Below, piece by piece: positions 5,008 to 60,504 of a stretch of 64,000 nucleotides of DNA. Each line of letters begins with the position of its first letter. Positions within the stretch are counted from its first letter, which is position 1. This DNA is from Bolinopsis microptera (Eukaryota > Ctenophora > Tentaculata > Lobata > Bolinopsidae), in assembly GCF_026151205.1 (NCBI RefSeq), contig NC_087076.1:11322902-11386901 (forward strand). Direction: 5' to 3'. The notes under the pieces were generated by a model. That model searched no databases and was not told the origin of the DNA. It saw nothing but the letters and a program-made list of their open reading frames with translations. A program made the position numbers and the translations under genes.

Positions 5008-5019
5008 AGCATAGTGATG

Positions 5020-5795: not shown

Positions 5796-5807
5796 AGCAT
5801 AGTGATG

Positions 5808-8032: not shown

Positions 8033-11000
8033 TTAAACTTTAAGGCAAGATTCCTTTAAAGCCAACCAGAAAGCTACCGAGTGCTCGTAGTTCAAACACT
8101 CAGGTAGATCGGGTAACTCTGGTTCCTCGTTCTCAGATCTCGCTAACAGAGTCCTCTCTTTGAAGAAGTCCAGACATTCCATTAGCTCCATACCTTCATA
8201 ACTAACACTACCTTCCGTATCCTCTGAGGGTTTCAGGACCATCCAATCTATCAGGAATCGGTGTAACTCCATCTGCAAATAAATTCATTGTTATTCATGA
8301 TTTTGGATTTAATAGCATTACTCCTTCCCGATATTATACATCAGAGTTCCGACCACTGTGAATTGTAAATTATAACAATGTTAATCCAGGAGCATATATG
8401 ATGTAACAGATCATATAACAAATGATTTGAAATCTTACCAGCCATATCTTGATGATCTTATGATTCTTGCCAGTGAACCACTCGTGAGACTCAGGAGGTG
8501 GTGTAGTGACCATATTAATGCTATCAAACGGATCGTAAGTGCTGCGGTAAGACTTGTAGAAGTAGGCCAGGTACCAAGCATCCAACACGTGACACTTCTT
8601 TAGGGTATCTGGTATTGAGTAGTTGGAATGTTCTTTGAAGGACCCAATACGCTCCATAAATCTGATCAAACTCTCGTTAGGGGATCCACTTCCAAGACCT
8701 GCAATTATGATTCCTCTGAATTATCAACAACTATTGCTTAAAATATTTGATACACCACCCATCGAGTGTTTTAATAAAATCAAAATAGAACAGATGTCAA
8801 AGAGTTTAACTGTTTAAATAGCATACATATTACATACTACACATATTAAAAACCCATTATTTCACAATCCAAACTCCAAAATTCGTACCAGCTCTGATGT
8901 AGCCGATAGCAGTAGCCAGTGCCTTCTTAGCTTCATTAGCAGCTCTAATATCTCCAAACTCTATCTTGATAGTATCCGGTATCCTGTGCTGAGGTTCCCT
9001 AGCGTGGAGCTTGTTGCACAGCTCCAACCACGTGACATCCTCACGGTACGTCATCTTGAAGGTGTCGTGATCTGTGAACTGCTTGATGGAGTCTAATATG
9101 GGGTGTACCCCGCCCAGTACCTCGTCCTTTAGGTATCTCTCAAATACTCCGTAAGAGAATCTTACCTCCCTGTGTTTACCTGGCAAGTCAGTTTAGTTAA
9201 TTAATTAATTAAATACAGCAGGTTTAATTAGTTAATACAGCAGGTTTAATTCAGCAAAACAGTGAAACAGTACGCTGGAATGTTCATAATGTAGTATACA
9301 GTATTTTCGCCTCTTACAGATTTGTTAGCTTCAAAATATAATTGAATAACATAAATTGAAGTGAATATTACTGACCGACGAGTCTGACAGAATGAGAATA
9401 TAACAAGAACATGGTAGGTTCTCTCCGGGTCGTAGTCTACGCTGAGAAATCTATCTGACAGTTTGACATTCTTGCGTTTCGTATGTCTAACAAGCTTATT
9501 GTGTAACGCAATCAGGGTCTGAAAAACAAAACCATGTACTAAAAATGAGGATATGCAATGTATTAATCTTTACAAAAACTGTTCTTTGACAGTTTTACAA
9601 TTGGTAAGAAGTCGGCAATGTGAAGTGGGGATGAAAGAGGAGAACAAAGCAACTAACATCAAGCAGATGGAGACAACATATCCCTTCTCTAGCAACAGGT
9701 TCAGGTAGGAAGAGAGACAGTGGCTCATTATCTCTGATATCCTTCTTATTTTTGTACGCTTCTGGGATCGCAAACTTGGTGCTCTCTACATTAATCTCCT
9801 TCCACGCCTGTGAAAACAAAGTAGTTATAATTTCCATTTATGATTCTAAAATGTGCACTGGTTGCTGATACAGCTGAAATGCTATACACAGTACACAAAA
9901 TTAAATGTAGCTATCATTTCAGTTGCTACTGTTAAGATTCTTAATCGGGGTTTTAGTAAATAATACAGTGATTAATATAAAAATTCCGCACCTGAGCCCA
10001 CGCAGCAAATCCTTCTTCCAAGATGGGGTCATCCTTGATAACATCTCTTATTGGAGTATTTCTTGCTTCCTCCAAACTGCTTTTATATGAGTATCGAGAC
10101 AGAAGACGTCTGAAGAAGTCCAATATCTTCGGTAACAGCTGAGGGTGGAGGGGTTCAGACGAAGTAGTTTGATTACCTCGAGTTATAGATGTGGATACTG
10201 GTGGGGAGGTGAAACACATTTGTTTACTTTAATAGTGAGCACATGTTCGGCGAGTTGAGGAGGTGAAACACATTTGTTTACATTTTTAGGGTAAGCACAT
10301 GTTCGGCGGGTTGAAGAGGTGATACACATTTTGTATTATAGAAGGCTTGTAACACTTGTAACGCTTTCTTGTTACCCCCCTTTGAAGGCCCCGAATTATT
10401 TTCTGAACGAAAGCTCAAAAATAACCGAGAAATCGACCTTCTTATTAACTCATTTTGATGACTATTTCTGACCTAAAATTGCACGAAAAATCGATTTAGC
10501 TAGGTTTCAGAACCTATAAACACTTCCTTATCCCTAAAAATTGATGTTTTATAGCTAATACGAGCAACAAGCAACATATGTTTTGATCCTTCGGTTCTAC
10601 TCATGACCTAGGCAGTTAAGCTGAAACCGACAGATCGAGGCAATCCTCACCTTAACTGATAAAACTGGTACTAACACACTTTTCAGATATAAATGTTCTT
10701 TGCGATATACGTTTATTGCAGCTTTGCAACTTGAGTGAAGACCAGAGTACGAAAACACACAGCAGGTAAGCAACTCACTTTTTGTGACTGTTCATCACGA
10801 ACATTCTGATCCTGCAACATATGAACAAGGATATCGTCTCCTTAACAAATCGAACAGGTACTATCACAATTTCCAGAGCACAGCATGATAACAAATTCAA
10901 AAGAAACACAATGAAGGTAGGTTACCAACACCACAATATAACAATCATACTAACAACTGAATTAAGTTTATTCTGACGACGGGCAGCCCTGATGTGCTCC

Positions 11001-16153: not shown

Positions 16154-19100
16154 CTGTGTTTCTGCAGAGAAATAAGGGTTCAGTGATCATGATGGAATGG
16201 GCTGGAAATTGGAATATGGGTCATACAATGATCTTATAAGTGTCATTTAAAACTGGGAATTCAGATTAATCTGTTTGCAATATTGAGTACCATCACATCG
16301 TGTTATAACAATTAACCTTTTCTTCCAATCCGATATTGTTGGCATCAGTAACCTCCATGGTATTGGTATTGTTTACAAACTGATGGTTGTCTCCACCAAT
16401 CTCCGCTCCACACGCACATCTCCCTCGCTGCATAGGACGACCACATTTGTTGATGGCGTACGCGTGACCGTTAGTACAACGATACCATTTCCATTTTTGG
16501 GAGCTGGTGATTTTAAATCTCTTTTTAATTACAGAAATACCACTGAATCTTGCATTGGTTACTAAGATAAAAGAAACCCCCAATTACTTAAATTATTGGC
16601 TTGAATGAAAGGTCTACACTTGTAATGAATATTAAACTTACCCTTCCGCGAGATTGCCAATAAAGTCAGAAAGGATATTATCTCTCATACCGGGAAGGAA
16701 TTTGTTCTCACTTTGTTCTGGGTACATTCTTATACTCTGAAATATTCAAATGTTTAAGACCTTCACCATATTATAATACTTAAGTAATTGTAACAGTAAC
16801 GAGGGTATGACTATGATCAGCTAGCACTGGAGCAGATAACGGTTGTTAAGATGAACACTCCATGAACAGTACACTGCAGCATTATTCTGAAGGTCCTTAC
16901 CTCGAGCAGTCTAAGGAAGGGATGTTTGCAGCGTATCTGCAGAGTCAGATAGAGCAGAGTAAGAGGTCCTCTGAACGGATCAACTCTCCTCAGATCCACT
17001 CCGGACAGGGTGTTAGGATCCGGGTCACCGGTACAAAGAGCTGTAAAACAGTTCTTCTCGCTGTCTTGCCTTAGTGTACCGCGCACCTGGGGTTCAAATA
17101 GAATCAGTGTCAAAACATGAAAACATGTGAACTGTAAAGTGAAAACACCCGGTAATAGTGCTACTTATAATAATTTGCCGTAGTCCAATGTTTAGGATCA
17201 CTGATCAGTCGGTCTAAAAAATGAAGTAAACTATTCTTTATGTCCACAAAAAAGAAGTTGAATAAGCGTTACCAATTCTTTGATGTTGTTGGGAATGGGA
17301 CTGTTCCTGAGAACGTAGTAAGTAGCTGCAATTGAATGTAGAGTGGTACACTCCTCAGCCTCCATCTTCTCCACTACATCATCAGCGTTGTTCGTACCAT
17401 TACTCACGGCCAACTCATTCCTAACACACGATAGACAGTAACAAAAAGCGCGCAGTTTCTCTTAAGTAATTTTACTATAATATGTTGAACTGCTATTTTT
17501 TAATCTAGGGATTTAGTACTTGATTTCATGTACCTTGAATTATGCACTAGCTTATAGTTATCATTCTGATCTGGTTTCCTAAACCGATTTCAATAATTAA
17601 AATCACTAGCAGTATCTTGGCTTTGCTCAACCATAAGGTATAAACTAAAACTTTAAAGGATATGAACTGAATTCTGATACCTTAAGGAAGTGTATCCCGC
17701 CCCGAGAAGAGTGAACAGGTCGTTCTCCTGAGTCTCCGCATCTTCAACAGGTGATATCCAACTCAAATTATCATCCTTCATAACCTTGGAGATCACTGAC
17801 ACTCCTGAAGTTGACGGTGATAATAGAACATTTAATGACAGAATTAAACCCCTGTTTTGGCATTTAAATAAGTCTCTGATACCAAAAAATAAATACTTAC
17901 TTTAGTCAAACTTTAAGAGATCTAAGCCGAACAAAAGTACCTCTATCAACGAAGAGTTGCTTGAGGAAGAATAGTTTAAGAGTGTAGACTTGTCTGGGAG
18001 GCATGGTGGAGAGACTAGCCCTCAACTCTTGCAGGTACACAGATAAGGGTGTGGCAGGCCTATCCAACACTTCACTTACTTCTTTTACTAGGATCGTCAG
18101 CCTGGATATTTGTTGTTGTTAATATTAAGAGAGAAAATCAACCCGCAATAAATAGTCTTTCAGATACACTCAGTTCGTTATATAAAAACGGTTCACTTTG
18201 GCGAAGGCTTCAGCGTCTTTAATTATTTTCATTTAAAGGTTTGTCTTTATAAAGCGCGTCTTTATTAAACAAACTGAGTGTACTCATTTAAACTGGGAAC
18301 ACTTGATTATCAACATTAAATCATCACAAAGACTTAAAATTACAGTGCAAAATTAGGGGGATTGTGATGAATAATTTCAAGTTTTCTTCATCATGAAACT
18401 GTATATTTTGTCGTAAAAATAAGTTGTCTCCGTAGCATAAATTATTCAGTACTCGGACTCACACTCTGCGGATACCAGAAACAGATTGTACAGTGCGCTG
18501 TATGTATTCCACTCCTTCATATTCAACTAAGTCATTGTACATGTTGATCAGTTGGGGAATATCTAGTCTGGTATTCACCACATCCTGGAGGAAAGGGTTG
18601 GGAAAGGGTTATATTATATATTATATATTAGGAATGTAGGATTCTTAGAAGTTATTTTAAATTATCGTTACAGACGCGCTTTGTGGTCTACACTACATGC
18701 CTCATGTTCATTCAAATGAAAGACAGGTCATATGTGTGAGAGCAGAACATTAAAATCTTCACCTGAGTGATGGTGACGAACTTTGCGAGCGTTGTAACGT
18801 TAACAGTCTGGTCTTGTAAGTGACAAGATTGGGATATGAACTCACTGTAGTCACTGCAGGGGTAATAGTTGGTTATATCCGATCATGAGAAATTAATTTA
18901 AAACCATAATCTCAGCTTACTACAGGACTGGAAAAGTAGATTTCAGCCATTTGAAACGTTATTTGGTAACGTTCGCAGATCTGACATAGAGCACGTCTTA
19001 CAGAACGTGGAATAGATTATAAAACCGTAAATGTTTAAATACTCACTCGCGATATGTGAGTTGATTCTTGACGAACATGGTGAAAATGAGGGTTTGTAGG

Positions 19101-22100
19101 GCTTCTAGCTTATCATTCGCTACTGACCTTAACAATCTGTTCTCACGCACTCTACCCTTTCCTGGGAGATATCATATATTTAGTCGACAAATTCACCAAG
19201 AACACCTGAGAGCCAGAGTCTGACAGGTCTTCCAAATCATTTACTTCGACATCTGCGGTTATATAACCCAAGATAAATGATAACTTATAACAAATTAGTT
19301 CAAATCTCACCGAGGGTTGCAAGAGTTTCCAAAATTCTGGGGTCAAGTCTCTGTTCACTCAGGAATGTTACAATTATTTGAGATAGGAAACTAACGGCCT
19401 CCCCGCAGCAATTGCTCACCAAAGCCACCAGGTCCCTGTGGATAATTTGTAGGCTTGTAAAACGTATGATACCGAGGTAAATGTCACTAGGTGATAATGT
19501 TCCGATTTGGTTGTTTTCTACTTTTCAATAAGATAAGTTACAAAAGTTGGTGCAATTTATTGAACTAACTCTAGATCAGCTGGGATGGGAGGAGAGTCTT
19601 CAAAAATAGGATCCCCGCATCTTGAGCATCTGAGAAGTTAGCATTATGGTAATTAACTGCGAAATAATTACACTTATCAATTTGATAAGACAGGGGTATA
19701 ATGGTAAAGATATAGAAAGTAAATCATTTGACTTAGTTGTGCGTTTCTTTCAAAGCCCCTTGCGGACAAATGTAAAGAATAAATTAGGGTTAAATAGTTA
19801 AATTAAGCAGAACTCACTGCATATTCTGGTTCTCAAAACAGGGTCTACAGAACACGTGTCTACACGCTGTAACGACCTGATCGTGAGTCAAATCACCGCA
19901 CACAGTACACACCCACATTATATTCCTGAAAATTTGCAGAGTTGAAGTTAAAACTTTAACAGCCATGTTAAATAGTGGTATGTAATAAGGAACAGAAATG
20001 AACTTTGTATGACACGAGTGTTGTAAGATGTGATATCAAGCTCACATCATATCAGTGTCCATAGCAAGGTCCTCCACTGCTAGTTGTATCATGTCGTGTA
20101 GTTGCGTAATAATTCCCTCAAGAGACTCCTGGACCGTGAGGGCCTCCAACTCCTGAATAGTCATCGAGTAGTTTTAATAATCCACAAATATGTTAGTTTT
20201 AATGTATTATTGTATCATTAATAATGATATAATTGAGTTTTACAATTTAGTGATTTCATTCCTGTTATATTCTCGCAAGATGCTTCTAATCCACGGACAA
20301 AGAAACATGACTCACGTGTTCTACTTTGACATAATAAATATCAGTTTGAACTTTAGGCACTCCGAGGCTGTTCATTTTACCAACAAATTTTCTGTTCAGG
20401 TCCTTGAATCTAACTCGGTTCCAACCATTCCTGGGAGTATTGGTTAACGTCATATATCATAATATCAAGGTCAGCCTAATTGTCTACACCCTCTGCAGTA
20501 TCTCAAAGGCTCTCAAATATTTCAAATCGGGGGCCTTCAGTAACAGGCTTCATTAGCTCTGATAATAGAGATAGAACAAACATGTGACTAACATGAGCCT
20601 GGCGTACGCGGTAGGGTGTCCGCCGTAAAGTCCGATGATAATCTTTATGGGCATGGTAAAGTTGTTGGTCCTCATGACGTTGTCAATAGAGCTCTCAATT
20701 TCAGTTAAGAGGATCTCACAAAGGGTGAAGAGAGGTTGTTCTGACCGTGAAGCGTTTTCAAAACAACTGATATCTTTATTGATCTCCTGCAGAAGAATAA
20801 AATGGTTAAAAATATACAAAGACATTATACACGAGGAGCAGCTTCCATCTCCGATCCTATTCAATCTGAATATCCAGTCCACTCCCACATTTGTTCCATA
20901 CAAGTATCAATTAAAAACTGTAAGATTTACCTGCACGAAAACAGTAAGAGTTTTCCGTAGAGCCTCTAGCTGGATCTGTCCACCAAGTCTCAGGTGGTAT
21001 ATCTGTATCAGAACAGCACACTCGGCAACATGTTTCTCCCGCCAACCTTCAGGAAGCTGCACTTCAAAGATCCTGTAAGCAATCTGCAGAAAAGGTTACC
21101 ATGAGAAGTGAAAATTTATTTAATATATCCTAGAAATACTGGCGAAAGACTGTACAAATTATAATTATGAACTTGAGATTGCGCAATGCGCATATCATGC
21201 AATTTTCGATACTTTGAATACAACATAGTTCTACGGTGTATGAACTACGTTGGGTAAGGTTGTATAATTGTATTTTCATGACAAACCTGGAATTCTAAGT
21301 CGGATTGAGCGGCGTAAACCATGTTCAAATAGTCCGAAAGATAACGTTCATTCAAATCCTGTCTTAACTGAGGGTCCTGACTCGCTCCACTCAACAATTC
21401 ATACAATTTACACTTGTTGAACTCCAACACGAAATTGTCTGACATGTCCTCCAGCAAATCGTCTGAGTAAGTAATCAATTGTAGCTTTGTAGTTAAACGA
21501 AACGACAAGGTGTGGAATATTCTCACAAATGGAATGACTGCGTGGAGCCGCGAGGCTGCTCATCAGTAACTTCGTACATTGATTTACAACGAACCTTCTT
21601 CATTAAGTCTGAATACACCAGTGCTCATCTCGTCCAATCTATCTTTGACGAGCCAGGAAAAAGGGAACCGACATGGCACATCTCTAGTGTCAGAGCAGAG
21701 GAAATTATGCTGTATTTTACACAAGCTATGGTCACTGACATGAATATCACTCCAACTGGGCATCATACTGTAAAAAAGGAATGTTAACTACATCCCCTCT
21801 CGCTACAACTTGCCAGGCATCACGAGCAAGACTGAAGACTGCCTAAATTCTCAATATAACGCCAGCCAGCAGCCTGTATAATTTAACGGTGCAAAATTGC
21901 GATTGTAACGATTACTCTGCACAATTGAGTATGACTTACGTAAGCATTTGCTCCCAGAAGACGGTAAGAGATGTTTCACTTCTGAGGGCTGCGTTACCAT
22001 CACGGTCTATATCTGATATGATACTAGCTGCTACATTCGTCAAGGAGTCTGACACCTGTTAATGTGTGTTCAGATCTTCAAGTTCTATCTCCTACAATTG

Positions 22101-37100: not shown

Positions 37101-40100
37101 AGCCTGGGCATATCGTCCTATTAACTTGGCTACGGATGGCCATTTCTGAATTAAGGGAGGACAATCAGGCAATCAATGTATTCAATTTTAGATTTTATTC
37201 GGGTGTAACGTCTCAGTTCTATGACTCAAGAAATGTTTGACCCGCATAAGCAGAAAAGGATGATGATAATGTATGTTAACTCTTGTTTTCATTCATATCC
37301 ATTACACGACACATCCCTCCGTCGTCGTGTGCTTCGACTATTCAACAGGCCTAAAGTCATTTCATTTAGGAAATTCAGCTTTAATCACTTCATAACGTGA
37401 ATGTTTCAATTGCAAAAAAGAACGGAACCTTACTTTTGTTCTTCCCGAAGGATTCAATCAGTAAATGACAATTGCGAAGAATCATCTGAAATTCCCCAAA
37501 TTCTGTTGCCACCTCAGTAAACACCGCCTGAAACATTTTATAGATATCGAATGATGTTTACGTTGTGATGGAAAATGGACATAACTCGGCAAACAACTTA
37601 TTGTTCGTTTGAAGTGGGACTTCAAAAAGTGTGCATAAAATCCAATGTTATCTTGTTTTAACTTTCATGAGTACCATTAGCTAGATATAACGCTAAGTTG
37701 CATGTTTACCAAATATAAAATAATATTGATAAATTCTTCAAATACGACTTATGATTTCTAAGTCTATCAGAGTAAAAATAGGAATAACCCGAATTCCCAG
37801 AGACTACTTAATTAGAGAAAAACCTTGATATCAGTCGCAGGAACTTTAACAACTTTCGTAACCAAGAATTGAAATCGATTGTTAATTTGGCTATTCTCGT
37901 CAATCAACTTTTCTAGAATCTGTAAAGTCATATCTCTGGAACGGATATCTTCGTAACTATCTTTAAGTGTCTCTTTAGCGTCTTTAACGACATCGTTATT
38001 TTTGAACTCTGACAGCTCAAAAATCATCTCCCATGGAAAGTAGTTAGTTGAGTTAGTATCAGATACTAAAAGGTGGCTGTAATTCACCCCAGTAGGAAAC
38101 TTTCGCAAGAGGATTTCTCTCAACGCCTTAATAAAACCCTTTGATGAGTTATAGAACCTTTGGTTATCTTTCAAATATATTATGATGAAGGATTGTAAGG
38201 TGTCTATCATCACATTGATCATTTTTTGAGGAACTTTCACTTCGTCTAGGAATGAATCATCTTCGATTAGCTTCTTTTTATCTTCGTCCTGTGTGAGAAA
38301 TAGTTTAAGATTACCGTAAATAATGGATTACCTTAGGTTAAGTCTTAAGAACACTTATCACTTGTCATTTAACCTATAAAGTAAGAAGTAAGTCTACTCT
38401 TCAAGTTTTAACTTTTTAATGAGGTCTGGCCACGAAAATCTACATTTAGTTCTAAAGCAAAACAAAACTTAGCAAGACATCCGCGACATGAATATTATCG
38501 ATGTGGATTCTGGTGGGAGGTGAGGCATATTCGTTGACACGTGAGAGCAATTAACCAATCAGTTTCCATTATTGACCAATCAAAACCAAGAATCACTGGA
38601 CACTGTCACATTATAAAGTATGCCTCACCTCCCCACCAGAATAGGATTGGAAAATTCACAGAAAATGAGAAGATATTATTTATTTGGTATTGCTCACATC
38701 TTTGTTGTTCATGAAAATTCTGAATCTTTCCAGAATGAATTTCTCAGCTTCAGCTTGATAATTATCGTCATAGAGCTCATCTTTATTTTCCGATAAAGGC
38801 GTAGTTTTGAGGACTCCCTCGAATAGAGTCGTCCACCAAGTGAGCTGTAGAATGTGATTGTAAAATTCTAAAAACTAAAAAACATTAACATAATATAAAT
38901 TATAATTTCCCTCGATCATTAAAACGAGTTTGCAGATATTTGTGATCATAAAAGGAAATGATAGAGAAAAGGAAATGATAGAGACGTTAATAAAGTTAGG
39001 ATAAGACTAACTGGCAGGGAGTTTAAGAGCGCAGAATGAACGTCTTTGATGGGGCTCTTCCACTTGATTGTAGAGATGATGTAACATTGCCAGAAACCCG
39101 AGAAAATGCTTGCTGCAATTCTAAACCAGCTCTCATCTTTAGCAGTCCCTCCAAAAATCGCACTGTATGCAATTGAGCTCCTAGTTTCTCTTTTACTAAC
39201 GTTTCTTCTCATTGTATACTCATGAAGCCTTCTACCCCATCGGTCAAGAATCTGCTCTAGATTTTCTGTCACATTTATACTGTCTCTGGAATGTGATATC
39301 AATAAGAAAATTGAGAATTTACTGTTCAGTTTGTATAATCGGAACCTTCTATTATATGTATTTGTGTGGTCTCTACAAATATACAGAGAAAAATCGAATA
39401 TGGCACCTAAGTGTTTTTAACTTACAGGTTATAAAGAACATGTTTAGATATCAGCTTTGCAGCAGCTTTAATGCTCTTTTCCTGCGAATAACATAATTAC
39501 AACGAACAACGAAGGACTTCCCATACAAGTTGGGATCATCGCCATCAACCTTTTAGTTAATGACGATAATCGTCCATCGCCTTACAAATAAGCTCGTTTT
39601 ATAGCATTTTAACTCATTTTTCATCAAATCTCCTACTTCCATAATAATAATTTCCTGAAGATGTAATTTACTTATTTACCGTCATCATGGATGAGCTCAC
39701 AAATGATTCTATGTCCCAGTTTCTGACGCAACTGACGATCAGGTCCACAGAAACATCTTTTGGATAGGTTTGCACAAGATATGTTAGCCCGCTAAGATCT
39801 GCCGACCTAGCACAGAACTTCAGCAGACCAGACACCTTTTTCAAATACTCTTTGCTTTCAACAAAGAAATCTCTGTCACTGAAGAGTGATTGGATAAAAT
39901 ACAGAAAAGTTGATCAATTTGATATGTAATCCATAGGTCATACAGACAGATTCAGTATGACGATATCGATACGTCATGTAATATATAAAGTTACAAGGTG
40001 CTGCTGAAATATGATTCTTAAACAACTTATAATTTGATACAAAACTAACAGTGGGAATCTGGCATCATCAAAGTGATCGTTAAAGCGATGTCCCATCATA

Positions 40101-41063
40101 TAGTCATCTTCATCCTCCATGATTCCGGATTCTTTTACTTTGTTCCTCATCACATACAGCGGTATCACAAGCTGTGGGCAGTCTTCTTGATGAATAGTTA
40201 ATAACCTTTCCAGCTTCTTTAAAGCAGCCGCGCTGAGAAAAAAAGTCATATTTATCTATTCTTAGAAGAATTTTCCAAGACGATTGAAACATGCTATCTA
40301 AAAAGTTATAACACAACTTTCTTTAAATTATATGATGTTCTAAGAACTCTATAGAACTATAAAATAGTTCACAGTACCGTAGAGAAGCACAATGAAAACA
40401 AAATTACCATATTGGAGGTTCTAAACCATCTTCTACCAGGGGAATGAGCATTTTAGTGCATTCCTTAACAGTTGACACATCCAAAGTGTCTTTCCTATGT
40501 TGTCCTTTAACTCTTCTTGAGAAATTAGGTAGGAGCCAAAGTAACATTAGACGAGATTTCACGTTGCTATGTTTAAATATGGTTCTCGTGAGCCCTTGGA
40601 AGTTCTGAAACGATGAAACTAGCTAATTTCCTCTTTTTATCTTAAGTCGGCATCAACTTTTTTCCACATAATTGATCTATTTTTAACAATAAAATATAAT
40701 CTATTACTTGAAGCATTGTCAGTTTATGCAATATGACCTGAAATGAGCAATTTTAACCAAAATTAACAATGAGCATTATTAGTCTAGGTCAATCTTACTT
40801 CTTTGAACAGATGTTTGACTTCAGGAATGACTACAAGTGTTTCATATACAAAGGAGTCCAACTGGATACATATGTCCAAATTGGAGTGGTTCTGACTTTG
40901 AATAACTTGAAGGAGAGCTAGATACTGATGAAAAAGCTGCGATTCGCTAACATAAGAGAATCTCACAGCCACGTACACTGTCTTGCTTTCTGACAAAATA
41001 AATTGCTGCTAATAAGAGTTGTGTCTGAGTTTAAGAATAGCGGTAATCGTATATTAATCGGTA

Positions 41064-41110
<47 letters not shown>

Positions 41111-44100: not shown

Positions 44101-47100
44101 TTAAACTCAATCCTCTCCTTCACCTTGAGCCAATGAAGGGATTAAAATGGGTGCTGCTCTTGAGAACGAAAAGGAGATGGAATAGTTTCGTTCAAGTTTT
44201 GGTCTGGAATCTTAAGTTGGTCAACATAATGATATAATATGAGCGTTAAATTTTACAAATCGATTCGGAAAATCGATACTAGGGAAATCGATTAGGGACT
44301 CCTAAGTAAAATTGCTAGGTTATTCCTCAAAATCTGTGTTCTATTTCAAACACAGCTTTCTAATTTGAATAATCAATATTCAGTGACCCCCCTCATTCCG
44401 CCGTCTCAATGCTAATCCGACTTAGGGGCCGGGTCTCCATCAAAATTATCTCGAAATTGACTTAATAAGTGTTTCGGGTAGAGGGGAGTGATATCTATCA
44501 GCTGCTTTTAGTCCCATGGAAGATATTGTTCCTAGCCGAAATTATCGCCGGTCAAAGGTCAGCGCTTATGTGTAATTGTATTGTGTGAGCGATTTTCAAA
44601 TCGAGTCTAAAAATCTACCTTCTCCTACATTTTTTGAGCAATCGCCCTCAAACTTTCAGGATATGTTCTTAGGATCAGTTAAAAGAGAACTATATAGCCA
44701 GAATTTTGAGATAGGTATGTTTTTTCCATGGGACCAAAAGCAGTTGATAGATAACACCTATTTCAAGAGAAGTCAATTTCGAGAGAATTTTGATGAAGAC
44801 CCCACTTAACTTAACAGAGTTATTAGGGGCGTTTTTGGAATACTGACTAACCAATATAAATATTGTTGATCTAAAATTACATATTATATATATATAATAT
44901 GATAATATTAATAACAATTCAAAACCTCTTCTCAATATAAACGCTTACCGTTTTCGATAACAACAAGTCTATTTGCATGCTGGTGAGCATCCGTATGGAA
45001 TTGATTGCGATCTAGATACTCCCACTCGTTTTGCACATTATTAGCGTATAAATATGAGACTGAGTATTTGAGGAACTTGTACAATATTCGAGAATCCTCA
45101 GGAACGTCTTCGATGATGGCTTTAAAGACCTTAGCGTCACTTCCTGGTTTTCCGAGAAATTCTTTGCACCTGATAATATGATTTCTTGATTCATATAATC
45201 TACACTAATAGTATACAACTATATAAAGAACACTTTCATGAATTATTTAATTATTGTCTACCATTTTGGGAAAATACAAATTTCCGGTGTAAAGAGCCAA
45301 AGGGTTATGGCATGAGTTTGGGAATTGGGATATGGTGAGAATGAAGGATTGAAGAACAAGGTTTCTGAGTAATTAAGCATTCTCAACGTTAAGGAGAAAA
45401 TCAATATCATGTTGCATCATGCCCAAAACAGAGCGAAATATGGATTATATTATACTTACTCCACTTGCTTCCAACTTGCGCTTACACTGCCAATAGCATA
45501 AGCTAGAGCTAAGTATTTTTGTGCAACTTTAGCATGGACGATGAAATTAACGTTGATCTTTTTGCTTGTTATTTTGTCCCTGAATTTTGGTTAAGGTTAC
45601 AAGAATAATTCTACTAATTCTACTCTTTTTAATAAACTTTCTGCTAATAATTTGTTAAACTCACGATTTTTATACCAGCCTAACTGACAACATTTAAAAG
45701 ATCAAACCCAATTCTCAAAGAGTAAAATAAGGATTTGTGCAAGTAATTTCTCGATAAAAATTAAAAATAAACATTTACGTTATGGCTTGATATCCTTGTT
45801 TGAATGTGTCTACAATAGTCCCAGTTAATCCTTTTCGTTTTGGCTTAGGTTGTCCACTCAGAGCATCACGATAGCTTATCATTCCAGGAGCTGGTGTACG
45901 TCTGTAAGTTATGATTTCAGTACTGGAGCCTCCAGTAGACTTTTTGGTACTGTACCTGAAATTAAAAACAGTTGAATTAGTTAATAATTATTTGCCTTAA
46001 TTAAAGGCTGCACTGCCTACCAGTATTGATAAGCGGTCATGGTTGTGAAGTTAAGAATGTAAACGCACACGGTATCATCAACCTAATAAGCATAGACAAG
46101 GCGACGGGTAGCAGGAAATATTTCTGGCGAAAAAGATATTAAAGGACCAGTTAACTGAAAAATTTGTAGTCTCCAATTTGGCTAAGATTTAAATCAGCTG
46201 TGACAAACTGGTAAAGAATCGTATCGCCGAAAGAACCAACTCTCTAGCGTACGTGTAACGCGTGTTATTGCAATAATAAGCTGTGGCCTCGTGACGTCAC
46301 GAAGTCCCTCAGTGCGCGCTGGCACAGCGTAATACGTTGCAAATGTTTATCGTTGTCATTAAAACACGTGTAACTCACTCAAATTTTAGAATTATGACTA
46401 TTACCCTAGTTCTCCAAAATCCTTATAGTTTTGGCTATCATCCTAACTAAAGGAATAGCTGATTAGATGTACAGTGCTCACGTCATGATTTTAAACAGTG
46501 ATATAGGTTCTTGAACAGTGGCGGGTGAATGTACGGTTAGAAAGTTTCTGATATTACAGTTCTTATGTCATATGTGATAATTTTGGATTGTTTTCATTGC
46601 TTAATTACACAAGCAGGGAGACTGTACCGATTATTTTTCCCCAGTCCATGAAACTCTAACGAATTTAGAAAGGATCTAGATAAGTAGGAGTTTGTTCAAT
46701 TCCGAGAGCAATTATATTTATAGCATAGCGAAATTTCTAACTTTAAATCGTATGTGTCAGCCAGTACAGGAGACAAGAAGTCTGGCTACTTTACGGCCGT
46801 TCCTCTGGGACCATTAGTAGAAGTAGCTTCTATCAGAACAGTGCCGTGGGAACAGAATTCCCGCCAAAATATCCGGTCTACCAAATAGTAATAGTGATGG
46901 GAGTGTACGGTGTGCGATGTGTTTTGAATTAGACTTACGGCTTACCTAGTTGTTATCCTAATTGCATTATCATCGGTACATAACATAAATAAACTACTGG
47001 TTAGTTTAAATACCAAGTGCAAACGTGTTCAGTCAATCGACCTACTGAACAACTATAGAATTTCCAAGACCCTATTATTCTTTGGCCACATATTACGGCA

Positions 47101-50100
47101 CGATCGATTGTTAGATGGTTAAACGACCAACGTTAATCTATACAATTCTAAAACTATGAGCTAGCACTTTAATCTAAAAATACACTTTTTATATTACTCC
47201 TGATTTTTACATTTCACGTAAAACATTGTCGCCACAGGTTTATCATGGACACTAACAGCTTAATTTGAGATAAATGACTTATGAGTTTCTCTAAAGTTAA
47301 CTCTAAAGTTGTGTAGTCCAGTCATTTATGGACATTTATGGAAATGAACCTGCAAATGTTCAGATACTCACGAAACTTTGCACAGACCTTCCCGAAGGTA
47401 TGAATAAACGATTTTCGTTTGGAGACATTTTTTTGACAGTGGAGAAAACCCAGGAGGGCCACGCCCATATTGACCCAATAACGTAATCGACCCCTTGTTT
47501 CTGAAGGTCGTAGAGACTTCAAAATAGGCTTAAACGAAGCCGCATATGCATGTTTATATAGGAGTTATCGAGCAACACATGGCCTAAAATCCTTACTTTT
47601 CGAGAAATTCGCCAAAAACCATTGTGGGCGTGGTGCTGAGCCCATTTTCGATAGGATCGTGATAGAGTCTTTAGACAGGGTGCAAAAGAACCGGAATTAG
47701 CATATTAATATATGACTTACGAACAAACATATGCCTTAAAGTGCTTACTTTTTCAGTTATTGGCGAAAAATTGATTTTCGGTTCCAGAAATCATGCAAAA
47801 TTATGGGTATCTGGTAAATTGGGCTATGAAGGCCCTAAAGGTTTTTGAATGTGTGCAAATTGTGCAGAATAGCCATGTTTATATACAACTTATATGAAGC
47901 AACATGTACCCTAAATTACTTACTTTTCGAGTTATTCGGGGAAAAACATTGTATTATGTCCATTTTCTACCTGTAAAATACAGTCTCACGAGCTCTTCTG
48001 CGCGCGCAAGGGACTTCGTGACGTCATCGCCAAAATAATACAAACGCTATTTACACGCGTTAGAGAGCAGTTAGAGATTTAGGAATTTCGACTCGTTGCT
48101 TAGTTTGCTATTTGTCACAATCTGTCAAAATATGAGGATAACTTTTTTTTCAGTTAACTGGTCCTTTAACTGCCCCCTACATACAGTATTTATGGCTTGG
48201 CTAATGGCTCGTGGAAAATTTAAGATGAGCAACTTACGTGATATTATTGCTCAGGTTTGGATCGTCGGTTTCCGAACTTTCTTGTGGGGATGATAGGTTC
48301 AAGCTCTGCGTAATATACATACTCAACCTGAAACGTGACATTCGTCATTGATTCAGCCACTTAAATAGTTAAATTGGCTGACCTGAATAAACGCTATTTC
48401 AAATCTCGTAATAATCACTTCATTATTAATTATATTATTATTATTCCTAAAAAACAATGAATTGTCACGTAAATTGGAATGTAGGGCTCACCCCCTCCCC
48501 AACCGCAATTAAAACTCACATTTGCTGTCTTTCTTCTGTACTTATTTCTCTTTCTACAACAGGCGGAGAAGGCTTGTTGTCATCGGCAGGAAACTTATCA
48601 GTTGCAGCTTTCGAGACCTCTTCAGTTGAAGGTTTTGAAACAGCATCATTAGTAGGTTTTGAAACATCTTCAGTTGAAGGGGTTGAATCAGCATTAGGTG
48701 AAGGTCTTACAACTTCTTCAGTTACAACTTTTGAAACCTCTTCTTTAGAAAATAACTGACCGGACTGTGTAACACTTGGGATTTCAGAAGGAGGATTCTT
48801 CTTTGTTTCAATATCTGACATAGAATCTGCTGTATCGCCAGGAGTAGCTGTGTTAGGAGTAGCTGTGTTAGGAGTTGTCTCTGATTTTGGTCCATCTGTT
48901 TCAACGCCCTCTGGAGGAGCATCAGCAACTTTCTGTCGTTTGCTGGCATTTTCATCCTTATCATTCTCCTCAATTGTCTTGGAATTATTTACATTGGGCT
49001 CTGGTACTGCAGGTCCATCGACTTCTTCAGAGCTCTCTCTATCCCGGACATGTACGATATCTGTGTCTTTCGGCACACTGTTATCTTTAGGAGGCACTAC
49101 TTCTTCACTTTCTCCTTTGTTCAATTGATCCTCGCCCGCGTCACTTCCCGGGATTTCTTCATAAATTAACTCCTCTTTTAAAGTGTCAAGGTCAGAGTCC
49201 TTCAAAGTCACTTTCACTTCCTCAGTTGAAAGGTAAGGGACGCTGTTGATATCACTAATAGTATCGTCGCTTGTCAAAGTCACAGTCTTATCGGGACTAT
49301 AGGGTTGAACTTGATGGGGCTCGGTTGAAACAATATCTGAAATTAATTATTTGAAAATACCATAACATTTAACAAGGACGGTGCTGTTGCATGATCCGTA
49401 GGTTCATTCGTAATTGATTTAACTAATGTCGATGAAATGGGGGAAACAATGAAACGAACCAGCATCTGCAGCAAAAAACGATTGATAAATATTTAAAGAT
49501 AACAGAGTTTTGCCGAAGCATCATAACACTTACCAGTTGTTTCAGATTGTAAACATTCTCCACCATCTCTGTTGAATTGACTAGATGGGGCTTCTAGTAT
49601 AACGATACTCTCATCAACTTCTCCTGATTTTGTATCCCTCTCATCCACCATTTGTACACTCTCATCCACTTCCATCAATTGTACACTGAAAGACATCTAT
49701 AATATTAATTGTTTTATAATTTTTAAAAGTTTCTTTTGCCGAAACAATAAGTTAAAATAAAGTGCAATACATGACCTAAGAATTCAAGATGACCACGTTG
49801 GACGAACCAGACCTGGCTAGTGCTAAAAAACTCACTCATGAGGTCGATCAATAACAACAAAAACATCGCTGCCACTTGAATCTAGTGTTCGGTCTATGTC
49901 AGATTGTGGGATGGCACTCGATCCTCCATCTTTCCCATCCAAGTCCCGTAGAAAGTCATTTGCAGAAACTTCTGGGCTGGTTTCTTGGGACGAATTTGGC
50001 TTCTGAACTGTTTCTGTCCTAAGGATTATGAATTATGATAGGTTTAAAAGGAGGAGAATAATATCTAAAGTTACAAAATATTAACAAACATTGCATCACT

Positions 50101-51140
50101 AGTTCGAGAACACTGGTCAATGGAAATGTTTACAATGTTTATCATAATTAGATCCAAGACCTGACCTAAACTGTTATAATATAACCACACAAATAACCCA
50201 CAATTTTTTGAATTCAATTAGACAGATTTTAATTTATTATAGATTGTGTCCAACTAAGTTTAGATATTCAAATCACAAACTTAGGTTGCTTTTGTGTGCT
50301 TTGTCCAGGATAGGATTTCTGTCGCTTCCGTGGTTGGCTGGTGCCAGGGCTTGAAGTACGGGAACTCCTGTTCAATTTCTCATCTGTATCAGAATCAGTA
50401 GCTGTAGCACCATGAGCTAACCACGAGGACACCTTACTGCAAATATTAAGCTTCATAAGTGGTCATCAAAGTCAAAAGTTCATTCTACAGTAAACCAAAC
50501 CTTTCAAAATACAAGATTAATTCATGATAATCCCAGGTTTTTACAAATTCAATGCAAATTTTCAAACCTGTTACTTTGTTGTAGAGTAGTACCAACAAAG
50601 AATGACCTATCTTCAAACTCTGAAAAAATCATTTGCTTAACTAAAACCTGTCTTGTTTAAAGGTGCTGCTATCTTTGAATAATAACTACAAAGAAGCAAA
50701 AAATCAGAAAAAGACATCATGTGTATCAATAAGATTCGACTGCACACAAAAAATCAAGAAATCCAAATTAGGAATAATGAATCATATTTCGTAAAATATT
50801 CCTGGTTTTATAATCATATTTTCTGCTTACCATCTGTGTTTATGATAACACGTACTCCTTTTCCGGATGGATATTCATCCAGCATTCCCTCCAAATCATC
50901 ACATTCTCCTAATTCTGTATCATCTCCTTCTAACTCATCTTCCGGTTTGTACACCATTACAAGTTCAGGAGCTTCATCAGGTGATTTGAGATGTTGATTT
51001 AAAAGATTTCTACATGTATCTGTAAGAACCTCAAAAGCTTTTTCATAATCACCATCATCAAATGGGATTTTTACCTTTTTCTTTTTGGCCAAGTTACTTG
51101 AAAGACTAACTTGTAGCCATAGTGTCTTTTTGGCAGCCAT
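8033..51140 (-). CDS. RNF213: RNF213 (mysterin)-like giant AAA ATPase / E3 ubiquitin ligase, 82-exon gene model
   Basis: I could join 82 minus-strand exons (listed in the block entries below) by GT-AG introns with matching phases, from the ATG at 51138-51140 to the TAA at 8033-8035. They total about 15.4 kb, about 5,100 residues, against about 5,200 in human RNF213. Diagnostic features appear in family order: GETGCGKT and FFDEANAT (AAA3); NIPLFIVGHPGSSKSLAK and VVVLDEIGLAED (AAA4); NWSLDPAKMNRG; FPIPLLNRMEKH; a C3HC4 RING; an RZ finger; and a GICCLHLL...LHN C-terminal signature. Known family role: cytosolic dynein-like AAA core fused to a ubiquitin ligase, linked to lipid droplets and antimicrobial ubiquitylation. 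Oddities are a 1-base frameshift near 24,480, an unresolved mini-intron near 19,200 and an RZ finger with C-x-C spacing. Exon ends are my readings of splice consensus, not transcript-verified. Confidence 0.93.
10188..11346. repeat. Left terminal inverted repeat of the 3.7-kb element
   Basis: Matches 12723-13880 in inverted orientation. It contains subterminal direct repeats of GTGAAACACATTTGTTTAC and GCACATGTTCGGCG within the first 130 bases, probably transposase-binding sites. A G-run lies at about 11,271-11,300. Confidence 0.85.
12418..12656 (+). pseudogene. C-terminal exon of a DDE_Tnp_4 transposase
   Basis: After a good 3' splice site (TTTCAG at 12,413-12,418) the frame reads GVTLNIPEVMWSKTQFTPEE, then IARIHVERSIGYLKRYKILG, and ends in a stop at 12654-12656. 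RIHVER-IGxxKxxxIL is the terminal DDE_Tnp_4 signature and includes the likely catalytic Glu. The N-terminal catalytic Asp blocks are not seen in 11,347-12,417, so the transposase is deleted or highly eroded. That interval instead holds a diverged direct duplication (about 11,811-11,888 and 12,190-12,262). Confidence 0.7.
12723..13880. repeat. Right terminal inverted repeat of the 3.7-kb element
   Basis: Inverted copy of 10188-11346. It has a shorter homopolymer (C-run near 12,768-12,780) and roughly 27 extra bases near 12,830-12,860. Otherwise the arms look nearly identical, which implies a fairly recent insertion. Confidence 0.85.
14319..14416. mobile_element. Tiny MITE-like inverted repeat (TACAATAATACCCCC termini)
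   Basis: TACAATAATACCCCCATTCACCGCG near 14,323 pairs with CGCGGTAAATCGG and GGGGTATTACTGTA near 14,376-14,414. Ends of the type CAGTAATACCCCGATTTACC look like pogo/Tigger-type mariner MITEs. Only about 95 bp long. Confidence 0.4.
16317..16561 (-). CDS. RNF213: RNF213 block 10: RZ-type zinc finger exon
   Basis: One exon encodes KWKWYRCTNGHAYAINKCGR, then PMQRGRCACGAEIGGDNHQF. This is the RZ finger shared by RNF213 and ZNFX1, needed in human RNF213 for ligase activity on lipopolysaccharide. Cys, His, Cys, Cys, Cys and the final His are present. The second-half cysteines are spaced C-A-C, whereas the consensus I recall is C-x2-C. Splice phases are 1 on entry and 0 on exit and match the neighbours. 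Summed exon lengths place it at about residues 4,460-4,540. Confidence 0.94.
16642..19435 (-). CDS. RNF213: RNF213 block 9: E3 module between RING and RZ finger
   Basis: Exons 19311-19435, about 19207-19252, about 19047-19161, 18763-18853, 18465-18584, 17941-18101, 17681-17804, 17273-17420, 16901-17086 and 16642-16736. Sequences include VALVSNCCGEAVSFLSQIIV, GRVRENRLLRSVANDK and PPRQVYTLKLFFLKQLF. One junction is unresolved. Between 19,252 and 19,161 the frame after SGSQ only joins GRVREN if an intron of about 49 bases ending in AAAG is removed. The other nine exons fit well. Confidence 0.83.
19570..19925 (-). CDS. RNF213: RNF213 block 8: RING finger (C3HC4)
   Basis: Two exons, 19818-19925 and 19570-19629, encode the RING. 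Exon one gives CTVC, then ACRHVFCRPC. Exon two gives CSRCGDPIFEDSPPIPADL. The ligand order is C-x2-C, C-x-H, C-x2-C, C-x2-C, a complete C3HC4 set. Summed exon lengths place it near residue 4,000, where the RING of human RNF213 lies. The intron falls just before the last cysteine pair. The RING recruits ubiquitin-loaded E2 in the family. Some RNF213 reactions are reported not to need it. Confidence 0.93.
20046..23947 (-). CDS. RNF213: RNF213 block 7: E3 module upstream of the RING
   Basis: Exons 23786-23947, 23206-23430, 22950-23097, 22622-22725, 22335-22499, 21940-22055, 21595-21767, 21287-21462, 20931-21072, 20593-20786, 20316-20430 and 20046-20152. Phases join throughout. Recognisable stretches include DRDGNAALRSETSLTVFWEQ, RFPFSWLVKDRLDEM and IIIGLYGGHPTAYARLM. 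This is the helical shell around the RING in RNF213. No independent catalytic motif is visible. The last exon splices to the RING exon in phase 2 (DTDM-M-NIMWVC). Confidence 0.87.
24056..26645 (-). CDS. RNF213: RNF213 block 6: later AAA units
   Basis: Exons 26538-26645, 26155-26369, 25869-25980, 25644-25701, 25131-25264, 24753-24840, 24431-24573 and 24056-24294. Family signatures are SYIGLRDFYCL, SRYLLIVTPNLETTI, FNSDFPDDADYTK, MIYESLYDVLNQYY, YVEIALESHRVNCRVHDETK and FPIPLLNRMEKH. Walker residues are not apparent, as in the inactive AAA5/AAA6 units. Exon 24431-24573 has a reading-frame break: up to LTETRYR is in one frame and KLENWVESLTKSNSG is in the next. Flanking splice phases require both frames, so one extra base lies near 24,480. 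Confidence 0.9.
24390..24430. repeat. 10-bp tandem repeat at an RNF213 5' splice site
   Basis: Four near-exact copies of AGAAATTCAC on the plus strand. On the minus strand this gives repeated GTGAATTTCT immediately after exon 24431-24573, so the donor sequence is present several times in tandem. Confidence 0.8.
24590..24715. repeat. Imperfect tandem repeat in an RNF213 intron
   Basis: Repeated CCATATTACTGACTACTGA and GAGTTAGAC-ATACTAAAG-AGACCAT units. Intronic, no coding content. Confidence 0.7.
26848..30183 (-). CDS. RNF213: RNF213 block 5: second active AAA unit (AAA4-like)
   Basis: Exons 30012-30183, 29642-29768, 29168-29370, 28819-28972, 28562-28720, 27890-27981, 27446-27573 and 26848-26975. 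Key signatures are LVYRVHPLPPSLKPLIWDFG, VSLRDVNRFIE-VFKWFMK, Walker A NIPLFIVGHPGSSKSLAK (exon 28562-28720), HMTSFQ-CSPQSEAEGI across a junction, Walker B VVVLDEIGLAED (exon 27446-27573) and NWSLDPAKMNRGLYVTRQ. Lys and Asp-Glu of both Walker motifs are kept, so this unit should hydrolyse ATP. The intron between the CSPQSE exon and the Walker B exon holds a minisatellite. The exact donor of the 30012-30183 exon is uncertain. Confidence 0.93.
27656..27873. repeat. Minisatellite of GTACAGTAGA / GTACAGTACA units
   Basis: About 220 bases made only of 5- and 10-bp variants of AGTAC with CAGT or AGAG, in an RNF213 intron. The first part alternates TAGAG and TACAG. The middle (about 27,795-27,842) is pure CAGTA. 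It keeps several frames open by chance, giving spurious YCTVLYC-type ORFs. It ends only about 15 bases before the donor side of exon 27890-27981. Confidence 0.95.
30369..33037 (-). CDS. RNF213: RNF213 block 4: degenerate AAA unit and first active AAA unit (AAA3-like)
   Basis: Exons 32251-33037, 31874-32098, 31642-31746 and 30369-31388. The first exon has a P-loop-like SEGSGNGKTRK, but the matching strand reads MYLVDVSPS without the catalytic Glu, so this unit is probably inactive. The 1,020-bp exon has Walker A GETGCGKT (about 30,715-30,740), Walker B ETIVFFDEANAT and a sensor-like FIAAVNPYRKHTP. This matches the third AAA unit of RNF213, one of two that are ATPase-competent in the family. 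By summing exons, Walker A falls near residue 2,500. The numbering AAA2/AAA3 follows the vertebrate protein and is inferred from order. Confidence 0.92.
33317..36769 (-). CDS. RNF213: RNF213 block 3: helical arm / linker before the AAA core
   Basis: Exons 36500-36769, 36010-36321, 35761-35911, 35409-35630, 35100-35260, 34822-34974, 34073-34228, 33600-33773 and 33317-33390. The sequence is charged and helix-prone, with coiled-coil-like runs such as EEEKNKIEDKIREYAALTNF. No enzymatic motif is visible, matching the linker that precedes the AAA units. The last exon ends in phase 2, which joins the next exon as ERDL-LSIDQLGKIL. Confidence 0.85.
36858..37020. repeat. Perfect 72-bp inverted repeat (foldback) with 19-bp loop
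   Basis: The left arm 36858-36929 and right arm 36949-37020 are exact reverse complements over 72 bases (starting GGTCATAGCTCAGACAAGG), with a 19-base loop. Arms and loop are GC-rich and contain tandem GGTCGGTCGGAGGTCGGTCG units, in sharp contrast with the AT-rich surroundings. It lies in the RNF213 intron between exons 36500-36769 and 37434-37527. It could be a MITE or foldback element, or a hairpin RNA source. Confidence 0.95.
37434..48327 (-). CDS. RNF213: RNF213 block 2: N-terminal arm, first part
   Basis: Exons 48238-48327, 45779-45955, 45460-45579, 44949-45169, 40799-40989, 40408-40604, 40050-40232, 39680-39878, 39426-39481, 39012-39285, 38698-38844, 37824-38288 and 37434-37527. They encode mostly helical sequence without catalytic motifs, for example FIVHAKVAQKYLALAYAIGS and RNWDIESFVSSSMMT. 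This corresponds by position to the stalk-like N-arm of RNF213. Exon phases join cleanly across two element-rich introns: 40990-44948 (phase 1, joining ENG to ESKTVYV) and 45956-48237. No exon appears lost in either gap. Confidence 0.8.
38498..38645. mobile_element. MITE sharing termini with the 3.7-kb element
   Basis: Begins GATGTGGATTCTGGTGGGAGG and ends CCTCACCTCCCCACCAGAATA, about 148 bases long. The first bases match the GATGTGGATACTGGTGGGG terminus of the transposon at 10188-13880, including the GAGGTGA that follows. It is probably a non-autonomous relative mobilised by the same transposase. It lies in an RNF213 intron. Confidence 0.65.
41068..41120. repeat. (AT)n microsatellite
   Basis: About 50 bases of alternating AT with two interruptions, in the RNF213 intron 40990-44948. 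Confidence 0.95.
41362..42812 (-). mobile_element. Mariner-like transposon with long (about 360 bp) terminal inverted repeats
   Basis: Ends CAGGGTGGCCCAAAAGTGAC (41362) and its inverse (to 42812), a terminus type typical of Tc1/mariner relatives. TA precedes the left end. The right flank reads AA, so one TA may have mutated. The inverted repeats extend from 41,362 to about 41,725 and from about 42,454 to 42,812, including GTGCAGAGATCACTGACTGA. Inside, on the minus strand, lies a decayed transposase. The repeats are much longer than the roughly 30 bp usual for mariner. It sits in an RNF213 intron. Confidence 0.75.
41830..42326 (-). pseudogene. Decayed mariner-like transposase
   Basis: The N-terminal piece (42326-42096) starts MVHYPPYTAEQRLFVYLNKE and continues with QFQMKFNRPSPCRKSC, the helix-turn-helix of insect-type mariner transposases. 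A C-terminal piece (about 41,975-41,870) reads VIPDFPEKVTIWCAISSRGI and LGPYFYEEFG, the block around the second catalytic Asp. Stops and a large internal deletion separate them. Confidence 0.65.
43662..44141 (-). pseudogene. L2/CR1-like non-LTR retrotransposon C-terminal fragment
   Basis: From about 44,141 the minus frame reads LHWLKVKERIEFKLCLLIFK, then AVNGVAPAYLCDLV, SSSSRRTSSLHLPVG and APKIWNQLPIEIK...FKTLLKTHLF. This is the conserved C-terminal tail found after the reverse transcriptase of L2/CR1 elements. It is 5'-truncated, as is usual. The following bases to about 43,680 remain open but are low-complexity (repeated CGPLALLASLPFF-type text). Confidence 0.75.
44425..44805. mobile_element. 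MITE with GGGTCTCCATCAAAATT-type termini
   Basis: GGGTCTCCATCAAAATTATC (about 44,430) and CTCGAAATTGACTT pair with AAGTCAATTTCGAGAG and AATTTTGATGAAGACCCC (about 44,768-44,803). About 380 bases. The plus-strand ORF across it shows no family motif. It lies in the RNF213 intron 40990-44948. Confidence 0.65.
46143..48165. mobile_element. 2-kb non-coding DNA element with TTAA target duplication
   Basis: TTAA at 46139-46142 and 48166-48169 flank inverted termini AGGACCAGTTAACTGAAAAA. Inverted similarity continues inwards about 130 bases, including GTGACAAA, CTCTAAC/GTTAGAG and ACGCGTGT. A TTAA target is used by piggyBac and Kolobok transposons. No transposase is visible, so it is probably non-autonomous. 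GTGACGTCAC (46,294) and GTGACGTCAT (48,013) lie near the two ends. The interior has three diverged tandem units near 47,540, 47,700 and 47,870, each holding TTACTTTTTCGAG-like text. It sits in an RNF213 intron. Confidence 0.7.
48520..51140 (-). CDS. RNF213: RNF213 block 1: N-terminal acidic, disordered region
   Basis: Exons 50831-51140, 50568-50619, 50277-50436, 49836-50018, 49534-49685 and 48520-49336. The first exon begins MAAKKTLWLQVSLSSN and becomes acidic. The rest is rich in Ser, Thr, Glu, Asp and Pro and should be disordered. The 817-bp exon contains diverged repeats of a SKPSTEEVSK-like unit and NTATP-NTATP. Two basic KRQK motifs (ASKRQKVAD; PRKRQKSYP) could be nuclear-localisation or interaction signals, which is inference. 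I could not recognise the CBM20-type domain described in vertebrate RNF213. Assignment to RNF213 rests on continuity of splice phase with later exons, since this region is not conserved. Confidence 0.75.
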
Positions 51141-53065: not shown

Positions 53066-53445
53066 TATTATTATTATCGAACATGTCAATCTTACAAATG
53101 TCAACAATCCTAAAATAATTTAGAACCGAAACGTGATCCTTTGTAAAATTATATGTCCCAAAAGTCAAATTGACTTGTACTCAAGTATAAAATTGAACAA
53201 TTTACTCCAATAACCACGGTCACTAGCAAGTTCTCTCAAATGGAGAATATCATCATACGACTCCAGCAAGATGAAACGCTTCCAGAGGTCAACCTTCAGG
53301 TGGTGTAGGAGGTTACGTCTGTGAGCCCCGAGTCTACCAACTTCACTACACATCTCGACAGCAAAACACAGCGCAGCTTGAGCTGGTGATCTTTCATCGC
53401 TCCTCAGTATGTGTCCTAGCATCTTCCACCTAGATAACTCAGCAC
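53066..53445 (-). mobile_element. 5'-truncated non-LTR retrotransposon copy B, with target-site duplication
   Basis: Flanked by the 12-bp direct repeat GGCTGTGCCCTT at 53054-53065 and 53446-53457. It encodes the last 85 or so residues (MLGHILRSDERSPAQAALCF to the stop at 53165) and the 3' tail of the element at 5020-5795, in opposite orientation. The tail is longer here (ATAATAATAATAA). Confidence 0.9.
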
Positions 53446-53805
53446 GGCTGTGCCCTTAACATAATTAAACTGAACTATTGCCTGATACGATGTAAATATG
53501 AGTAATGAGTGTTGGATAAGTGAGCTGCGCAAGCGCTCATGCGCGCATTTGTGTCGATCTGGCTAGTAGCGCTTGAATAATTTAGCTACCAAGACGTAAA
53601 TCGCGCGTTACGTAAAGTATCATTTTTCCCTTCAGATAAAGTGAACGGTACACCCGCGTGTAACCTGCTTCAATGGTTTGTGTGCATGTGTGGTGGAGTA
53701 AGTGTAGAATGTAATGATTGACTGAATCTGTTTCTTTTGTGGTGTATATATGATGTGAGTGACAGGTGTAAAATGAAAAAGATATAAATATAAATATGGG
53801 TCTTT

Positions 53806-60479: not shown

Positions 60480-60504
60480 AAAAAAAAAAAAAAAAAAAAA
60501 AAAA
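60480..60504 (+). other. Poly(A) tail of the I-group retrotransposon
   Basis: Unbroken run of about 25 A directly after the 3' UTR (…CAGCCTCTCTT), marking the 3' end of the element. Confidence 0.9.

Follow-up and report, generated by a model that had tools for sequence, protein, structure and literature searches.

A very probable RNF213 orthologue with an altered RZ finger, and two further RZ genes, in the genome of a possible non-bilaterian animal

The closest described systems are vertebrate RNF213 (mysterin; PDB 6tax, 8s24, 9jwg), the RNF213 genes of invertebrates and, for the RZ finger, ZNFX1. Published accounts state that the activity of mammalian RNF213 survives deletion of the RING finger (PMC7311170, PMC11549300), that the vertebrate RING has Leu in place of the linchpin residue (PMC7311170), that each cysteine of the mouse RZ CxxC motif is essential (PMC12075652), and Tyr3078 of the mouse protein is said to block AAA4 at rest (PMC7311170). 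Outside vertebrates, RNF213 genes have been reported in Nematostella (PMC13319465), in the deep-sea mussel Gigantidas platifrons (PMC11299980), in symbiotic bivalves (PMC9993606) and in the Manila clam (PMC7430831). In Nematostella immune cells RNF213 is listed among the poly(I:C)-induced genes (PMC13319465); in the Manila clam one RNF213 gene is described as strongly upregulated with peptidoglycan and others as downregulated in response to LPS, peptidoglycan or poly(I:C) (PMC7430831), so that the direction of the response in these accounts is mixed. The passage of PMC5343593 that speaks of "metazoan" concerns USPs and not RNF213. The gene described here adds to a family that is already in print outside vertebrates, and the initial annotation, which took it to place this machine before the origin of vertebrates, made a reasonable proposal that is not new, given the four reports just cited.

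Our main conclusion is that the window (the whole stretch of DNA that was analysed, 64,000 nucleotides) very probably holds a complete RNF213 orthologue, that is, a dynein-like six-AAA protein joined to an RZ-type E3 scaffold, whose function beyond the sequence would follow that of the mammalian protein by analogy. The gene, at 8033..51140 on the minus strand, is real as judged from its sequence, and is modelled by exon chaining and homology as 82 exons encoding 5,088 amino acids. The chain was built by a Viterbi exon model with self-trained coding statistics and splice matrices, in which GC donors were permitted and AG acceptors were obligatory. Although rebuilt independently of the exon coordinates in the initial annotation, it has the same strand, the same start (ATG at 51140) and the same stop (TAA at 8033-8035); its 5,088 codons are stop-free, the median intron is 188 nt, and GT-AG borders are present at 81 of 81 introns. 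The claim that 82 exons join in phase can be kept as far as the open chain and the splice borders are concerned, but phase is forced by the chaining method and is not evidence in itself, and a fair statement of the exon number is 82-84. The raw chain had 89 exons, which became 84 after masking of a 3.7 kb inverted-repeat element and 82 after removal of two weak exons. Five raw-chain exons (13348-10779) were discarded as lying inside the element; the chain scored 1526.4 with them and 1504.9 without, and an independently trained model (exons 21-51) likewise placed exons there. The two weak exons, 41228-41157 (72 nt) and 49465-49460 (6 nt), are in frame, were chosen again by the independently trained model and may be real; they were dropped with knowledge of the earlier count, and the number 82 is therefore not fully independent.

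When one recipe was applied throughout, the chain on the gene strand reached 1498.8 with 91 exons and the opposite strand 153.2, and dinucleotide shuffles yielded a chain in 18 of 20 cases with a top score of 50.0, the coding model in this comparison having been trained on the RNF213 gene itself. As an independent check, a coding model trained on exons 21-51 alone placed both ends exactly for 14 of the 20 earlier exons and 27 of the 31 later ones, the other six N-terminal exons being missed or given an altered end. With this model the N-terminal part formed a chain of 28 exons (score 274.9) and the C-terminal part one of 38 exons (439.4). Among its controls, the opposite strand of the C-terminal part reached 158.0-169.2, the transposon-rich flank reached 155.3 and 163.4 with one end giving no chain, and the opposite strand of the N-terminal part gave no chain for any of the three ends tried. 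Measured against control scores of 155.3-169.2, the C-terminal part is thus clear of background and the N-terminal part modestly above it.

The identity of the protein is carried by homology. When each of four pieces was searched against all PDB chains, RNF213 accounted for 9/9 sequences matched at E<=0.001, with best E values of 2e-113, 1.6e-121, 1.3e-25 and 1e-26, and the catalytic residues are kept; a stalk-side search listed to E=10 returned RNF213 in nine of 11 cases (best 8.3e-17), the remaining two being unrelated (E 0.66 and 9.2). Alignment to vertebrate RNF213, which had been suggested as a check, gave collinear pieces against the mouse or human protein at aa 1446-1808, 1916-2683, 2688-3505, 3576-4049 and 4362-5031, 3,093 residues in total, with best E values from 1.6e-121 to 8.3e-17. 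The piece at aa 3576-4049 is weak alone (29.5 bits, i-E 1.6e-6), and aa 4050-4357 were unaligned to human RNF213 in the PDB search of that piece. All 73 alignment matches fall on the 82 exons, and the alignments extend a few residues into introns. The E3 shell and C-terminal domain (exons 73-82, 8036..16120, minus strand) are present; searched alone against PDB, the C-terminal piece gave no RNF213 match and one unrelated chain (E=1.3), and when anchored with the RZ exon and freed of the transposon exons it matched human RNF213 at E=1e-26, reaching aa 5031, which corresponds to residue 5191 of the 5247-residue human chain. The anchoring and the exon removal were done together, so the gain is not creditable to either alone. 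Six peptide patterns searched in each of the prokaryote and viral collections matched 4 and 7 stretches, none of them confirmed, in a search that is sensitive to close relatives only.

The initial annotation held that domain order and positions agree with vertebrate RNF213, which is borne out by the pieces within aa 1446-5031 and does not extend to the region before aa 1446. There, nothing significant was found for aa 1-1445 (aa 586 onwards against PDB, parts against Pfam). Exons 1-10 (aa 1-759; 44949..51140, minus strand) are marked by coding signal only, and exon 6 (49336-48520) encodes an N-terminal region rich in E, S, P and D. From about aa 653 onwards (exons 9-10) there is a stretch that is a CBM20-like candidate by its likeness to a motif (YKF..WE..RN); Pfam showed no CBM20 match. 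In the stalk (exons 11-28, aa 760-1915; 33317..40989, minus strand), aa 1446-1808 match RNF213 at E=8.3e-17 and the earlier part is without a match. Since aa 1-1445 lack detectable homology, it is a coding signal of modest strength that supports exons 1-20.

In the AAA core, exon 29 (32251..33037, minus strand), in the AAA2 region, encodes a degenerate P-loop, SEGSGNGKT, where the mouse has SERAGVGKS. Exon 32 (30369..31388, minus strand) encodes AAA3 (E=2e-113 to RNF213) with Walker A GETGCGKT (K2512), Walker B FFDEAN (E2586) and sensor N2621, and exons 37-40 (26848..28720, minus strand) encode AAA4 (E=1.6e-121) with Walker A GHPGSSKS (K2847), Walker B VVLDEIG (E2920) and sensor N2957. With Walker A and Walker B in both AAA3 and AAA4, the protein has, by sequence, two competent AAA units. 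Exon 45 (25131..25264, minus strand) carries the conserved segment YESLYDVLNQYY, in which, by residue counting on the mouse alignment, Y3192, the first Tyr of the YY pair, corresponds to mouse Tyr3078. In the genome searched (264.65 Mb, 232 contigs) the AAA3 region is single, both of two matches being the exons of the RNF213 gene itself.

The RING finger (exons 61-62, 19570..19925, minus strand) is inserted in the E3 back at the expected place and has eight ligands, CxxC-CxH-CxxC-CxxC; Pfam RING models stay under their cut-off (best 20.7 against 27 bits). The last Cys is followed by Gly, and there is no linchpin Lys/Arg. The two RING exons measure 108 and 60 nt; both lengths are divisible by 3 and the phases match, and an in-frame transcript devoid of the RING is therefore possible.

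Exon 72 (16317..16503, minus strand) encodes the RZ finger (Pfam PF20173, 59.9 bits, cut-off 27), with metal ligands C4407, H4411, C4427 and C4429 and the catalytic pair C4418 and H4438. Their published equivalents are the metal ligands C4505, H4509, C4525 and C4528, the nucleophile C4516 and the base H4537 (PMC11549300), and these roles are also given for mouse RNF213 (PMC12075652). The AAA3 and AAA4 motifs, the eight RING ligands and these six RZ residues were all located, in agreement with the initial annotation, which had both AAA units, the RING and the RZ finger present. The final two metal cysteines are spaced C-x-C instead of C-x-x-C, one residue fewer, and this spacing is a new detail; among the papers listed by word-based literature searches, none concerned a CxC RZ finger or RZ genes devoid of the AAA part. 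AlphaFold, given the RZ exon alone, returned a mean pLDDT of 36.7, too low to inform the zinc geometry of CxC. The one-residue deletion could be read as decay of the RZ ligase in a protein whose ATPase alone is left, which we regard as improbable. Another RZ gene of this genome (C2), with 29% identity where the RZ and shell align, is also CxC, which argues against decay, and both genes retain the catalytic Cys/His pair. We infer from the recurrence of CxC that zinc binding by the RZ finger probably persists.

The RZ finger was matched three times in the genome (7/7 candidates scored), namely in the RNF213 gene and in two further genes, C1 and C2; a count of paralogues, also suggested at the outset, therefore stands at one AAA3 region and three RZ matches in 264.65 Mb. 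C2 (contig C2, 16693035-16686686) has an RZ with CxC, a shell and C-terminal parts in large open frames, and its RZ copy WYKCAGGHVYAINNCGEPQEKGKCFCGSEIGGIKH lies in an open frame. C1 (contig C1, 7048437-7041795) has an RZ with the canonical CxxC, the His falling in the next exon according to the exon model, together with a shell and C-terminal parts that include a 458-residue open frame resembling the RNF213 C-terminus. Just upstream of C1, on the opposite strand, 7049530-7050426 holds a frame that looks kinase-like by eye. Compared with C2, the RNF213 protein gives collinear matches (E 9.8e-17, 1.6e-6, 2.0e-5 and 0.002); compared with C1, it matches in the RZ (E 5.6e-8) and, in collinear position but without significance (E=13), in a C-terminal piece. 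The human RZ stretch as query finds C2 at 4.5e-7 and the RNF213 gene here at 4.1e-9. A profile of C1 and C2 against PDB retrieved nothing but RNF213 at E<=10 (nine sequences, the top one at 1.6e-7), and its comparison with the profile of the RNF213 gene gave 99.8%; the C2 E3 region alone found no RNF213 in PDB and two coatomer chains (E 0.053 and 0.088).

The resemblance of C1 and C2 to RNF213 is confined to its E3 end, and no AAA core was found near them: aa 2089-3560 searched against 60 kb around C1 and 80 kb around C2 gave nothing better than E=0.54, whereas mouse AAA3 and AAA4 find the RNF213 gene at 4e-43 and 1.6e-16. Neither the RING half-motif nor the P-loop motif occurs in unspliced minus-strand frames of the C1 and C2 stretches; in the window they occur 1 and 2 times. 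Exon-chain models of C1 (142.3) and C2 (136.3) compare with 153.2 for the opposite-strand control over 43 kb, and were set aside for their background-level scores, the C2 chain moreover losing the first RZ cysteine of the open frame; the reading of both genes rests on open frames and homology. With chains at this level, either gene may be partial or may carry other N-terminal parts at its 5' end. Tentatively, and with slightly less than even confidence, the RZ-bearing E3 end can be seen as an independent module in this genome, in which C1 and C2 would be ubiquitin ligases that use the chemistry of RNF213 without control by ATP. Taken with the CxC, they suggest that the giant RNF213 either arose when a stand-alone RZ ligase was fused in or gave one off afterwards.

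Mobile elements lie within the gene as well as around it. Intron 76 (3,909 nt, about 212 nt without the insertion) contains the inverted-repeat element (10186..13882; 3,697 nt), whose arms of ~1.16 kb comprise blocks of 523 nt (99%), 393 nt (98%) and 147 nt (88%) and shorter ones, with TTA on both sides. It ends 47 bp before the exon 77 acceptor and could disturb splicing; it is outside the protein and is the source of the five false exons. Another element, in intron 10 (41348-42826), has 374-nt inverted arms (93%). These insertions in introns 10 and 76 would agree with a transposon-rich locus in which RNF213 is a silenced copy or has recently become a pseudogene. This is very unlikely, considering that the 82-exon model has no stop or frameshift, that every catalytic residue examined is intact and that no second AAA3 copy was found in the genome that could be the working one.

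The open frames within 41348-42826 appear transposase-like by eye, with no Pfam family at E<=0.01. A 381-nt repeat flanks the gene in two inverted copies (5421-5801 and 53066-53446, 97%). The stretch 55520-63999 holds a 162-bp tandem array followed by a 1291-aa open frame (56389-60264) with endonuclease, reverse transcriptase and RNase H, and then by two more frames, one GIY-YIG on the minus strand and one for a reverse transcriptase with a PHD finger. A short coding-like stretch, RISRKVRILGHVLL and WVNMGVALLGFLH, is alike at 47325-47704 of the window and at 16696728-16696999 of contig C2, and is probably a repeat.

That some other giant AAA protein, such as dynein or Rea1/midasin, has been mistaken for RNF213 is a negligible prospect, as general AAA Pfam matches do occur but are weak and all below cut-off, whereas in the four PDB searches every match at E<=0.001 is RNF213 and an RZ finger is present.

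For the RNF213 orthologue, the most likely mechanism is one proposed by analogy with mammals. AAA3 and AAA4 would bind and split ATP, and ATP binding there would activate the E3 part; an E2 would then hand ubiquitin to Cys4418 of the RZ finger, and His4438 would help its transfer from Cys4418 to the substrate, so that the RZ finger and not the RING would pass ubiquitin via a cysteine. In mammals RNF213 marks microbes that invade the cell; by the same analogy, we infer that ATP-gated transthiolation probably proceeds as in mammals and that microbes or vacuoles in the cytosol may be tagged, and a role against microbes is plausible. A full-length RNF213 with known catalytic residues in a possible non-bilaterian makes the ATP-gated RZ mechanism testable far outside mammals, and suggests that AAA3/4, the RZ pair and the linchpin-less RING are old parts, and that the stalk and N-terminus are fast-changing. 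C1 and C2, without a nearby AAA core, would allow the dependence of the E3 chemistry on the ATPase to be examined, a question which the published work cited approaches through mutants of mammalian RNF213.

The lineage was considered through markers of the genome as a whole. At 264.65 Mb this genome is smaller than vertebrate genomes are known to be, and it is probably not that of a vertebrate. The microRNAs let-7 and miR-100 and the motif IWFQNRRMKWK signify Bilateria, Eumetazoa and Hox genes. Genome-wide, let-7 and miR-100 cores with <=1 mismatch gave no site, in a search without a positive control genome, and an Rfam let-7 search in which 57 of 48,176 candidates were scored had no control signal and is thus uninformative. 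The exact IWFQNRRMKWK coding pattern gave none either; a shorter homeodomain-helix pattern has 10 sites, nine of which read IWFQNRR, none continuing with MKWK and one frame meeting a stop. A COX1 search of the genome gave no mitochondrial sequence. These marker absences fit a sponge or other non-bilaterian, short of proof; the early-branching animal of the initial annotation is accordingly plausible but unproven.

Compared with vertebrate RNF213, the protein has the same AAA/RING/RZ order, the same AAA3 and AAA4 motifs, a degenerate AAA2 P-loop, a linchpin-less RING, the RZ Cys/His pair and a collinear C-terminus. It differs in that its AAA core is 35% identical to mouse RNF213 (270/768 and 284/818 query residues), aa 1-1445 are unalignable, RING ligands 6 and 7 have 7 residues between them instead of 11, and the RZ has CxC instead of CxxC. 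ZNFX1, to our knowledge, is without the RNF213 AAA core and E3 shell. It is described as sharing an RZ finger with the Cys/His pair and as differing in being an RNA helicase (PMC12075652). The invertebrate genes of Nematostella, Gigantidas, the bivalves and the clam, compared by their published descriptions, bear the same annotation and are linked to immune or symbiosis responses; in the symbiotic bivalves the RNF213 family is reported as expanded (PMC9993606), whereas one AAA3 region is found in the genome here.
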